DNA of 23,966 nucleotides from a virus. The notes under the pieces are model-generated. The model was given only the letters and a program-made list of their open reading frames with translations, did not search any database and had not been told where the DNA came from. Position numbers and translations under genes: made by a program. Positions 10,231 to 16,607 of this stretch are shown piece after piece (position 1 is the first letter of the stretch; each line of letters begins with the position of its first letter). The stretch covers positions 1 through 23,966 of the IMG/VR virus record IMGVR_UViG_3300027770_000254. One strand, written 5' to 3'.

Positions 10231-11178
10231 ATGCAGCACGGATACAGAATACCCAAGCCACCACACGGCAGCCAAGAATGGTTGAACGCACGATGGCAAA
10301 ACGAAGACGGACAAGCACGGATCACAGCATCCGTAGCCGCCGTAGTACACAACGAACACCGATTCACCACACCAGCAGACCTCGCAGTAGAACTCTTGGC
10401 CAAGACACCCCCCGTGCCAAAAGAACAAAACGATGCGATGCGTCGAGGCACAATCCTTGAAGGCCCACTCATGTTGTGGGCATCAGAAATCTTGAATGTC
10501 ACCATCACAGAACCACAAGAACTGTTCTGCTACGAAGAAGACGGTGTACGTCTGATGGCAACATTGGATGGCAAAGATTTGTCAGGCAAAATCTATGAAC
10601 TGAAAACCTATAACAAAAGGTGGAACGGTCAACTCCCCCCATATTGGAAATGGCAAGGAGTACAACAAGCGATCTGCGCTGATGCAAACGAAATCACATG
10701 GATCGTTTTTGACTCCGATCTTCAACTGCAATTCCATACACAAACCGTCACATCCGACGAACGCCAACAACACATAGACGCAGTACGCAAATTCTTGGGG
10801 TTCATTGACATGGGGATGATGCCGGAAGGTGCTGACCCCACCTACGACAATGCTTCGGCTTTGTACCCCGAAGGATATGAGAACACTGTTGTCTTGGGCC
10901 ATGAGGTATACAACACTTTAGAGCGTCTGTCTATCGCTAAAGAACAGATTAAATCCGCCGAAGCAGTACGCGACCAGTTGCAAGGTGAATTGGGGATGCT
11001 GCTCGGTGACGCAGAGTACGGTTCGATTGACGGGGTGCAAGTTATTACCTGGAAGAACTCGTCACGCACATCGTTTGATGCCAAACAGTTTGAGAAAGAA
11101 CATCCAGCCTTACACGCAAAGTTTAAGAAAACATCAACCTTCCGCACTATGCGGATCACAGCAAAGGAGAGCAAATGA
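10231..11178 (+). CDS. YqaJ/lambda-exonuclease-like recombination nuclease
   Basis: A 315-residue protein with a YqaJ-type PD-(D/E)XK core: GSQEWLNARWQ, then RITASVAAVV, GTILEGPL with Glu77, MATLDG with Asp113, and IYELKTYN with Glu123 and Lys125. It should degrade one strand of double-stranded DNA ends to expose 3' tails for the annealing protein encoded next. A helical segment (residues about 220-255) and a C-terminal basic part follow the core. The ATG has AAGGAG seven bases before it, and the stop overlaps the next start by ATGA. Family assignment is confident. Confidence 0.87.
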   Translation: MQHGYRIPKPPHGSQEWLNARWQNEDGQARITASVAAVVHNEHRFTTPADLAVELLAKTPPVPKEQNDAMRRGTILEGPLMLWASEILNVTITEPQELFCYEEDGVRLMATLDGKDLSGKIYELKTYNKRWNGQLPPYWKWQGVQQAICADANEITWIVFDSDLQLQFHTQTVTSDERQQHIDAVRKFLGFIDMGMMPEGADPTYDNASALYPEGYENTVVLGHEVYNTLERLSIAKEQIKSAEAVRDQLQGELGMLLGDAEYGSIDGVQVITWKNSSRTSFDAKQFEKEHPALHAKFKKTSTFRTMRITAKESK

Positions 11179-12122
11179 AACTGGAAGAAATCCTCGGCAA
11201 GTACGGTGTCCCCGATCCGAAGATCGTAGGCAAACTACCCAAAGCAGGAATGCAACTTGACTTCGTAGGTCACGCAGATGTCACCAAAATGTTGATCGAG
11301 ATTGACCCTGAGTGGACTTGGGAACCAACCGCGTTTGATGCGAACGGTCTACCTGCGTACCGTGTTGAGAACGGTATGGCACACATGGCAGGCTGGCTCA
11401 CAGTGCAAGGTGTACGCCGACTCGGTATCGGCTCAGTCATGCACAACAAACCTGACCTGTTGAAAGAACTCATCTCCGACTTCATCCGTAACTCGGCTAT
11501 GCGTTTCGGTATCTGCCTTGCGTTGTGGACTAAACAAGAATGGGATGACAACCCTCACGCCACAACTAAACCTGCACCGAAACCTGTGGCACTTGACAGT
11601 AACCCACCCGTGTCGGCAGAAAACATTGAACGGTTCAAAGGTGCTTGCTCTGACGCAGCATTGGATTGGCGCGAGATTGCGAACAAGGCTGGTGTCAACC
11701 TGGACAACATGCACGAATCCGACATGGATTTGTTACGTGCCGCATACGCATACGCCAAAGCCACACCAAAACCTGTGGTCAAAGCCGAAATTGTGGACTC
11801 ATTCCAAATTAGCCCGAACGAACAAATCTTGGATGTAGGTGACGTGTTGGCCAAAGTAGTAGACCTGTTCGCCGGAGCAGAAGTGATCGAAGAATCACGC
11901 AACAACCACCCTGCCAACGGCACACCACAAATCAAAGAACCTGGCGCACCAGCCACAGCACCACAGTTGGGTAAACTTCGTGCGTTGTGCAACGGTGCAG
12001 GTATCTCCAGCAAAGAAGATCAACTCTCAATGGCATCAGATCACACGAAACGAACCATCACATCGTTCAATGATCTAACCAAAAAAGAGGCATCAGAACT
12101 CATTGGCATCCTTGCCCCGTGA
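11175..12122 (+). CDS. Rad52/Sak-like single-strand annealing protein
   Basis: A 315-residue protein. The N-terminal 115 residues carry QLDFVGHADVTKMLIEIDP, WTWEP, DANGLPAYR, GWLTVQGVRRLGIGS and DFIRNSAMRFGICLALW, the pattern of actinophage Rad52-like annealing proteins (substrate-contact beta strands, then a helix ending AMRFG). Residues about 135-205 hold a Pro-rich linker and a small helical block; the last 70 residues (LGKLRALCNGAGIS to TKKEASELIGIL) form another small helical domain. With the exonuclease it gives a Red-type pair. ATGA and GTGA overlaps tie exonuclease, annealing protein and resolvase into one operon. Confidence 0.82.
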   Translation: MKLEEILGKYGVPDPKIVGKLPKAGMQLDFVGHADVTKMLIEIDPEWTWEPTAFDANGLPAYRVENGMAHMAGWLTVQGVRRLGIGSVMHNKPDLLKELISDFIRNSAMRFGICLALWTKQEWDDNPHATTKPAPKPVALDSNPPVSAENIERFKGACSDAALDWREIANKAGVNLDNMHESDMDLLRAAYAYAKATPKPVVKAEIVDSFQISPNEQILDVGDVLAKVVDLFAGAEVIEESRNNHPANGTPQIKEPGAPATAPQLGKLRALCNGAGISSKEDQLSMASDHTKRTITSFNDLTKKEASELIGILAP

Positions 12123-14399: not shown

Positions 14400-14803
14400 T
14401 GAAACCAATACACATCGAACTATTTATTGACCGTTTGTGCGGTCTGTTCCCGACAACAAACATCGCACGAAACACATTGAAGTCTGCGTGGACACGCGAC
14501 GACATCATGCTCGATGCTTCCGAAGAAGACGGTAAAGCCGTACTTAAAATGTGTGAATCACTATCTAAATTCCCTGCCTCTATCGGGGAAGTACGACACA
14601 TGTTTCGACAAGTTGGTGGACACATCGGTGGCACATTCGGTTGCGAACTCTGCGACTACACAGGATGGGATATTGGCAGACAAGAACACCACAACCCCGA
14701 CCAAACAGACTGCTACCCAGGTTGCGAAACATTTTACACAATGGAATTTATGGGCGGCACATACGGTTATGTGAAACCATGCCAATGCAGGCAAGCAGCA
14801 TGA
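14399..14803 (+). CDS. Zinc-binding protein with loader-like N-terminus (134 aa)
   Basis: The start overlaps the previous stop (TAATG). Residues 1-70 form helices resembling small phage replication accessory proteins (LFIDRLCGLFP, WTRDDI, SKFPASIGEVRHMF). Residues 82-130 hold CELCDYTGWD, CYPGC and KPCQC, six cysteines that should fold around zinc. A helical N-terminus followed by a CxxC-x-GW...CxC module occurs in phage proteins near replication genes, so a helicase or primase helper is possible. This is a guess from pattern. It ends with ATGA into the methyltransferase. Confidence 0.5.
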   Translation: MKPIHIELFIDRLCGLFPTTNIARNTLKSAWTRDDIMLDASEEDGKAVLKMCESLSKFPASIGEVRHMFRQVGGHIGGTFGCELCDYTGWDIGRQEHHNPDQTDCYPGCETFYTMEFMGGTYGYVKPCQCRQAA

Positions 14804-15711
14804 AAGTCCTCAGCCTGTTCAGTGGTGTCGGTGGGTTTGACATGGGTTTAGAGAACGCTGGTATGGAAACCGTGTTCCAATGCGAATGGGACAAACATGC
14901 GAACAGCATCCTATATAAACATTGGCCTGATGTTCCCAAATGGGATGACGTATCTACGCTGACAGGCAAACATATCCTTGCTCACGCACCCGTAGTCGAT
15001 GTCGTTGCATGGGGTTCACCATGCCAAGACCTGTCCGTTGCCGGTAAACGAGCAGGGTTAGAAGGTGGAAGATCAGGCTTATTTCACGAAGGAATCCGAA
15101 TCATCAAAGAACTACAGGAGGAAACAAATGGACAATATCCAAGAATCTCTATTTGGGAAAACGTCGTTGGCGCACTTAACTCCAACGGAGGGGCTGACTT
15201 CGGGATCATCCTCGACGAAATGGCTGAAGCAGGGGCGTTGGCAATCGAATGGAGTGTGCTGGATGCACAATACTTCGGAATACCCCAACGACGAAGGCGC
15301 GTGTTCGTCATCGCTATCTTCGATCCTGTCCTCGCCAACCGATGTCCAAACCCGCTACTACCTGTCAGCGAAAGCCTGCCAGGGCATCTTGCGAAGAGCA
15401 AACCGAAGAGGCAAGGTGCTGCCACCAAGACTTCAGAAAGCATTGGAACAGATGGTCAATGGTGGGATGGCAGAGACACAGCCGAAGCCCTAACCACCAC
15501 ATCAAATGAACAACGCATGCCAAACAAGCAACGGTTTCAGGCTGTAGTAGAAGGCTACACACCGTCATCGTTTGCCAATTATTCCGATGGTGTCGGCACA
15601 CTTCGATCCAATGGTGGTGACCTAGGGGGGGGGAGCGAAACATTGTTGGTTCACTCCAAGCAAGAGACTACAAAGGAATCGGAAACCAATATGTTGAAGA
15701 AGGAAAAATAG
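14800..15711 (+). CDS. dcm: Cytosine-C5 DNA methyltransferase, N-terminal fragment (frame-broken)
   Basis: The start ATG 14800 overlaps the previous stop by ATGA. Motif I (LSLFSGVGGFDMG), motif IV (WGSPCQDLSVAGKRAGL with catalytic Cys75), motif VI (WENVVGAL) and motif VIII (IPQRRRRVFVIA) are all present, so the catalytic half is intact. The target-recognition part starts near residue 180 and the frame ends about 26 codons after a run of nine G at 15625-15633. Downstream the -1 frame is open and continues the family (GSLQARDYKGIGNQYV and on), ending in motifs IX and X in the next entry. The two pieces are one gene broken by a single-base frame change. As read here, this product lacks motifs IX and X and should be inactive alone. 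Confidence 0.9.
   Translation: MKVLSLFSGVGGFDMGLENAGMETVFQCEWDKHANSILYKHWPDVPKWDDVSTLTGKHILAHAPVVDVVAWGSPCQDLSVAGKRAGLEGGRSGLFHEGIRIIKELQEETNGQYPRISIWENVVGALNSNGGADFGIILDEMAEAGALAIEWSVLDAQYFGIPQRRRRVFVIAIFDPVLANRCPNPLLPVSESLPGHLAKSKPKRQGAATKTSESIGTDGQWWDGRDTAEALTTTSNEQRMPNKQRFQAVVEGYTPSSFANYSDGVGTLRSNGGDLGGGSETLLVHSKQETTKESETNMLKKEK
15625..15633 (+). repeat. Nine-G tract in the methyltransferase gene
   Basis: An uninterrupted run of nine G sits in the target-recognition region of the methyltransferase. The frame holding the C-terminal half is open from 15621 (after a TGA at 15618-15620), so one base gained here would rejoin the two halves. Runs of this kind slip during replication, translation or sequencing. 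Confidence 0.85.
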
Positions 15712-16607
15712 TGATAGAACCATCAGAACCGTTCGTGAAGTCAAGCCGTGCGCAAACATCAGAAGATTCAGAGACATGGATACCAGGCGAAGTGAATCCG
15801 ACACTCAACTCGTTTGATGTTGGTGACACCCGTGCCACAACAACCATCGTTGAAGTAGACCCAATCGGGACACTCCAAGCAAGACAGCACAAAGGTGCAA
15901 ACCATGAGGGGGCGAGAGATGGCCACCTGATTGTAGAACAGCCTGTTCTGATAGACGGGCAACGTGTTGGTGATGTACGCATCTACACAGAACCAGTCCA
16001 AACATTAGGCGCACGAATGGGAACAGGCGGGAACAATGTTCCGATGCTGGCCTTTGATACACAGTTTGGTAGCAACGCCAATGTGACAGAAGATGTCGCA
16101 CCAACCTTGAAAGCATCACAAGCCCCACCAAGTGTTGCTTACGGCATTACTGGCAACGCAATCGGGAGACAAGACCACAATGGTCCGAAAGGACCATCAC
16201 ACACACCAGAAGGTGGACCGATGTTCACACTTACCTCAACAGATATTCACGCTGTTGCCTACGATGAATACAACGACACCACCAACGATATTCACCATGC
16301 GCTTCGCGCAGGCACAAAACAATCCACTGGCGTATTACTTGGCAGTGAAGTCGCTGCAACCTTGCGGTCAGGTGGTGACGGTGGCGTACCATCAAGCCGA
16401 GGCGAACACCTAGTCACCGAGCCAACAATGGCAGTGAGGCGGCTCACGCCTCTTGAATGTGAACGGTTGATGGGTTGGCCTGATGATCACACCCGATACA
16501 AAGCCGACGGCACCGAACAAGCCGACACCCACCGATACAAACAATGTGGCAACGGTGTTGCTTCACCAGTAGCCGAATGGATAGCAAAACATATTTTGGC
16601 AATCTAA
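15711..16607 (+). CDS. dcm: Cytosine-C5 DNA methyltransferase, C-terminal fragment
   Basis: Read as a separate frame it would start at GTG 15711, overlapping the stop of the N-terminal piece (TAGTG), but the frame is open back to 15621 and that upstream stretch codes matching family sequence. The last 60 residues hold motif IX (AVRRLTPLECERLMGWPDD) and motif X (QCGNGVASPVAEWIAKHI). In between are repeated target-recognition units with TL(R/Q/G/K)A-type steps, such as GTLQARQHKGA, QTLGARMGTGGNN, APTLKASQ, HALRAGT and ATLRSGGDGG. Alone this piece has no AdoMet or catalytic motif. It may be made as part of a fusion by -1 frameshifting, or not at all. Confidence 0.85.
   Translation: MIEPSEPFVKSSRAQTSEDSETWIPGEVNPTLNSFDVGDTRATTTIVEVDPIGTLQARQHKGANHEGARDGHLIVEQPVLIDGQRVGDVRIYTEPVQTLGARMGTGGNNVPMLAFDTQFGSNANVTEDVAPTLKASQAPPSVAYGITGNAIGRQDHNGPKGPSHTPEGGPMFTLTSTDIHAVAYDEYNDTTNDIHHALRAGTKQSTGVLLGSEVAATLRSGGDGGVPSSRGEHLVTEPTMAVRRLTPLECERLMGWPDDHTRYKADGTEQADTHRYKQCGNGVASPVAEWIAKHILAI

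Follow-up and report, generated by a model that had tools for sequence, protein, structure and literature searches.

Introduction

How should a viral gene be read when its two halves lie in different frames on either side of a run of nine Gs? The window considered here, the whole 23,966-base stretch of a virus record with its Gs counted in one assembled contig, carries such a gene, and a search for a DNA match to it among phage records returned none. A first-pass annotation described a C5-cytosine methyltransferase broken by one base beside the G9 tract, and offered slippage that switches the enzyme, programmed -1 frameshifting or a base-calling error as explanations. Comparison with relatives indicates that the window most likely shows a G-tract switch in its 'off or split' state, within what looks like a widespread, phase-variable, split, multi-TRD (target-recognition) family of phage methyltransferases without close cultured relatives; by tblastn against cultured phages, the first (alpha) part of the gene found only distant matches (<60%), and those of the second (beta) part were mostly distant.

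A C5-cytosine methyltransferase in two frames

The window holds motifs I-VIII and IX-X of a C5-cytosine DNA methyltransferase (Pfam PF00145, DNA_methylase). Such motifs usually, if not universally, share one continuous open frame; here frames A and B separate at the G9 tract, as the first-pass annotation had reported. The features, all on the + strand, are as follows.

ATG 14800 to TAG 15709-15711, +: frame A (alpha part), 303 aa by translation
about 14800-15400, +: methyltransferase motifs I-VIII, frame A
about 15466-15545, +: TRD-like module, frame A
about 15550-15651, +: TRD-like module D, frame A
15621-16607, +: frame B open stretch, by translation and Pfam match
15625-15633, +: G9 tract, read in frame A as the GGG of GGDLGGGSETLLV; site of the proposed switch
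15634-15655, +: two-frame junction AGCGAAACATTGTTGGTTCACT, read as SETLLV (module D end, frame A) or ERNIVGS (module C start, frame B)
15636-15710, +: TRD-like module C, frame B
GTG 15711 to stop 16607, +: possible restart ORF (putative beta part), its GTG overlapping the frame-A TAG by 1 nt
about 15717-15850, +: TRD-like module A, frame B, with about six further TRD-like modules in the same frame
about 16430-16607, +: motifs IX and X, at the end of frame B

Frame A matches positions 1-169 of the 324 in the PF00145 profile (E 1.4e-43), covering motifs I-VIII, and has the catalytic-loop PCQ within WGSPCQDLS; frame B matches only the profile end (270-323, E 5.4e-10), covering IX-X. In fused form the gene would encode a phage enzyme of the C5-cytosine methyltransferase class containing about ten small TRD-like modules. 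These short units lie in an array that separates the catalytic part from motif IX; every one contains a TL-like core, and it is from this pattern that we take them to be candidate TRDs. The best solved relative of L007, itself a single-chain relative of the window enzyme, is M.HhaI; an AlphaFold model of the closest single-chain relative showed confidence of any degree in the catalytic part alone, and was poor elsewhere.

The break as an overlap of two modules

The tract is the sole G/C run of at least eight within the 24 kb window. In frame A it encodes part of GGDLGGGSETLLV, the terminal part of the upstream module D, and a break located within the tract itself is ruled out because the SETLLV that follows it is family sequence in that frame; the suspicion in the annotation that the true break lies downstream was well founded. 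The approximately 17 nt just past the tract (AGCGAAACATTGTTGGT) code both the end of module D and the start of module C (ERNIVGSLQARDYKGIGNQYV in frame B), with ERNIVGSLQ read opposite SETLLV. The annotation had also held that frame B, open from 15621, already codes target-recognition sequence before the GTG at 15711, and that stretch, ERNIVGSLQARDYKGIGNQYVEEGKIVIEP, proves to be a genuine module present in relatives. Judged from its translations, the break at about 15634-15655 is an out-of-frame overlap of two TRD modules, a feature that the annotation missed. As module C in genes that lack module D (L159, L163) begins with near-identical bases in its own frame, the overlap represents an out-of-frame fusion of two real modules and not a random lesion. 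The same kind of D/C overlap occurs in L131, L138, L148 and L151-L168. L159 and L163 also have an out-of-frame junction from module C to A, yet without a long G tract, and L163 was confirmed to be split over its whole length, so a split can occur without a switch.

With nine Gs, frame A stops 25 codons past the tract, ending in SETLLVHSKQETTKESETNMLKKEK-stop, for a predicted product of 303 aa; ten Gs would give 602 aa, in agreement with the earlier estimate of about 600 residues from one additional base, and eleven would give 299 aa. The predicted peptides spanning the junction are GGGERNIVGSLQAR versus GGGSETLLVHSK. Modules C and A are in frame with each other in the window, so a single base decides the whole protein. 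Chance is a poor explanation of the tract, since the homology-retrieved set has six G tracts of at least eight in 136 kb of methylase genes, all within the five broken genes, against five G/C tracts of that length in 621 kb of other sequence from these contigs.

Tract-bearing and tract-free relatives

Around 300 loci were gathered by homology searches of viral contigs and by pattern searches. Distinct genes with both ends numbered 173, of which 82 lack any G run of at least seven and form a single ORF, one is tract-free yet split, 87 bear one or more tracts and are opened by no tract length, and three (the window, L156 and L284) open at another tract length; the tract-bearing genes were mostly retrieved through their tract patterns, and these counts do not measure prevalence. 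In the homology-fetched set a G run of at least eight is present in every broken gene and in no intact one, and the close single-chain relatives of the window all lack a tract. The idea that every tract-bearing gene might be opened by tract length alone thus fails for 87 of 90, which leads to a split-gene reading for these relatives and makes a single-chain ON state peculiar to the window, L156 and L284. Among the relatives, a second contig with the exact junction of the window at ten Gs was not found.

Tract length is itself variable between near-identical genomes of the family. L172 (G8) and L186 (G9) share 99.0% identity over 4.9 kb, L245 (G8) and L250 (G9) about 98% over 4.1 kb, and in each pair the tract is the sole gap in the compared block; further near-identical pairs with differing tracts are L212/L255, L215/L227, L227/L228 and L248/L279. 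Module-D tracts, the type found in the window, range from G7 to G11 at the same codons and occupy all three frame states: of 35 contexts, 20 continue into SETL, seven read into module C and eight are dead. The tract within GGV of module A in beta (G7-G9) could be classified in 99 cases, 78 of them in frame and 21 out of frame, with four more unclassified. Near-identical contigs obtained from separate metagenomes agree in tract length (L078/L079, L153/L156, L158/L165), and all 108 in-gene tracts of at least eight in the pattern-fetched set are of G on the coding strand; both facts argue against random error. The annotation had proposed that relatives with always-separate frames and a fixed tract length would count against a switch: separate frames are usual in the tract-bearing relatives, and tract length varies.

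The module-A type of tract (G7-G9 within ETWxxGGVxPTLN) occurs in at least 120 viral contigs (L170-L281), in most of them where a separate beta ORF begins, and the same pattern retrieved none from GTDB bacterial and archaeal genomes. A third tract position lies in a module coding REGKPGGGKGP in several split genes (L215:7533, L218:3407 and L171:3410, in gene orientation), and in L218 this tract is out of frame. The distant methyltransferases L291, L297 and L284 carry three to four G tracts apiece, and the L291 contig has an additional G14 run elsewhere.

Split genes under selection

Tract-bearing relatives share a recurrent layout that the annotation overlooked, namely two ORFs that probably encode two subunits, with a separate beta start. 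Alpha comprises motifs I-VIII and at least one module; beta lies in another frame with its own start, a TRD bearing G7-G9, and motifs IX-X at its end. Beta typically begins W[FYW]xKxRRAQ...ETWxxGGVxPTLN, differing in a few distant genes such as L291 and L297. The codon preceding W[FYW]xKxRRAQ is TTG in 54 of 88 contexts and ATG in 13, and in almost all the others an ATG, GTG or TTG occurs a few codons earlier, the modules that precede it being varied. Selection acts on both parts. For IX-X of beta the median dN/dS is 0.084 in split genes (321 pairs) against 0.064 in single-chain genes, the pairs being non-independent owing to shuffling and shared ancestry; purifying selection acts on beta of the split genes much as on the corresponding part of single-chain genes. 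On this evidence the split genes may well yield two working subunits.

Mosaic origin of the window gene

A tree of the catalytic part places the window inside a supported clade whose 14 relatives are single-chain and tract-free, with 98% identity to L013, and segment-wise BLAST gives single-chain relatives as the nearest matches to both its catalytic part (92%) and its module A (97%). One segment departs from this pattern, and a second locus bears on how it may have arrived.

15580-15694, +: probable imported cassette, closest to split-type L153/L156 (89.6%) with differing flanks, by segment-wise BLAST and tree
10231-12122: genes for a RecE-like exonuclease and a single-strand annealing protein, side by side

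As this segment is nearest to the split type and its flanks and the tree are single-chain, a tract-bearing cassette appears to have moved into a single-chain enzyme: the window would encode a single-chain enzyme into which one tract-bearing TRD cassette was apparently imported from the split group, an event that the annotation did not recognise. Relatives hold the same TRD-like modules in other orders. Among the single-chain relatives L002-L147, modules of about 30-45 aa are extremely shuffled, with protein lengths from 345 to 650 aa and module orders that differ among phages with very similar catalytic parts. The RecE-like exonuclease and annealing protein are possible drivers of this shuffling and fit frequent recombination.

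Proposed mechanism and alternatives

The reading we lean towards, with somewhat more confidence than doubt, is that of a multi-TRD phage C5-methyltransferase that acquired a cassette, is switched by tract slippage and allows the population to hedge its methylation. TRD modules would be shuffled through recombination, and a cassette (module D end, G tract and module C) would have come from split, phase-variable methyltransferases that form a sister group, with D and C joined out of frame such that tract length decides the product. At G9, as assembled, the predicted product would have motifs I-VIII and two TRDs, accompanied at best by a separately re-initiated beta part; G10 would extend the reading frame across module C as far as motif X, yielding a single enzyme, and G11 would stop early. 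Slipped-strand mispairing during replication, at a presumed rate, would alter the tract and switch the enzyme, and the phage population would thereby hedge its presumptive methylation pattern; defence against the restriction systems of hosts would be the most plausible purpose, a role suggested by the known activities of phage orphan methyltransferases. Variation of tract length is observed at family level; the altered products are those predicted by translation. A more tentative extension, to which we give appreciably less credence, is that slippage acts as a specificity selector: TRD modules overlap in different frames around G tracts, and length would pick which TRD is added, beyond simple on/off control, alongside module shuffling and a separately switchable beta.

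Several other explanations bear on the G9 state. An unlikely one is that it is no 'off' state at all and encodes a two-subunit enzyme, with frame A as alpha and the ORF from GTG 15711 as beta, the tract deciding only the inclusion of module C and the fusion of the chains. M.AquI is divided in the same way (PMC3404938), and the layout of 87 of 90 tract-bearing relatives, the placement of the beta start codon, which lies at W[FYW]xKxRRAQ or precedes it by a few codons in almost all 88 contexts, and the low dN/dS of beta IX-X in split genes (median 0.084) all agree with it. In the window the GTG overlaps the stop, and a sequence like a ribosome-binding site, AAGAAGGA, lies 7 nt upstream. However, the window falls in the single-chain clade and lacks the conserved start-W of the split beta proteins, and the bases resembling a Shine-Dalgarno sequence also encode the conserved EEGK of module C, so the likeness may be coincidence. 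An M.AquI-type two-ORF architecture under selection therefore fits the 87 relatives, and the window offers just a possible GTG restart. An error in this one assembly, with a true tract of ten Gs and an intact single-chain enzyme, is improbable: a single base in a homopolymer and intact close relatives would be compatible with it, but long G tracts recur at this codon position in independent contigs (G7-G11), identical lengths are reproduced across metagenomes, and, even were ten Gs correct, that length would correspond to the ON state of a tract variable among relatives.

It is very improbable that the gene is a dead end, inactivated by out-of-frame recombination of TRD modules; the junction is indeed out of frame and the gene mosaic, but the D|C overlap persists with intact module sequences in many divergent phages, and all other modules and motifs of the window are intact. 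Least probable is programmed or leaky -1 frameshifting, by ribosomal or RNA polymerase slippage on G9, which would supply a fraction of full-length enzyme. Slippery heptamers lie within the tract and the direction needed is -1, but relatives with the same junction vary in tract length and frame, some being already in frame for module C, and no RNA structure better than shuffles was found around or downstream of the tract (z +0.38 and -0.34). Programmed -1 frameshift genes have a conserved slippery site and frame relation and usually a stimulator, a combination not found here. With tract length not conserved, three frames in the relatives and structure absent, we reject programmed frameshifting as the main explanation; of the options that the annotation had raised, slippage gains good support and a fixed frameshifting device does not.

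Comparison with known systems

Precedents are known for split C5 enzymes, for phage enzymes with multiple TRDs, for bacterial methyltransferases switched by repeats and for a switch of that kind in a phage receptor-binding protein, and methyltransferases rank among the most variable phage genes (PMC7468147). A slippage switch is well known in bacterial enzymes, but for DNA methylases encoded by viruses it has apparently gone undescribed: neither tract-switched nor split methyltransferases of phages are described in the open-licence literature surveyed, which is itself weak evidence of novelty. If the tract-switch reading is true, phages as well as their hosts vary DNA methylation via hypermutable tracts, countering bacterial restriction systems that are themselves phase-variable. 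More than 100 environmental phage contigs are then available in which switching is checkable from existing reads, together with a natural set of split, modular C5-methyltransferases whose genes automated annotation would label as broken.

In Mod phasevarions and the type IIG enzymes of Campylobacter, according to the accounts in PMC4889913 and PMC11868660, slippage of repeats or homopolymers shifts the frame and switches the methyltransferase. Tract-length change would act likewise here, in a phage-encoded enzyme of the C5 class with the tract at TRD-module positions. Repeat-driven phase variation in a phage gene has a precedent in a receptor-binding protein with simple sequence repeats (Sorensen et al., as cited in PMC11868660), which is an adsorption protein and not a DNA methyltransferase. 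Multispecific C5-methyltransferases of temperate Bacillus phages, as outlined in PMC12707154 (citing Trautner 1996), carry several TRDs per polypeptide and protect against many restriction systems; the window enzyme would similarly combine several candidate TRDs in one chain, but with about ten short modules extensively shuffled between phages, and with homopolymer switches and split forms among its relatives. In M.AquI the large subunit comprises motifs I-VIII and part of the variable region, and the small subunit the rest with IX-X (PMC3404938). The split phage relatives share their point of division with this enzyme, which, like M.EcoHK31I, is a naturally split C5-methyltransferase; they differ from both in being phage-borne, in having many TRD modules on both sides of the division and in carrying poly-G near the beta start and within alpha, whereas the window gene belongs to a single-chain lineage and has a single two-frame junction.
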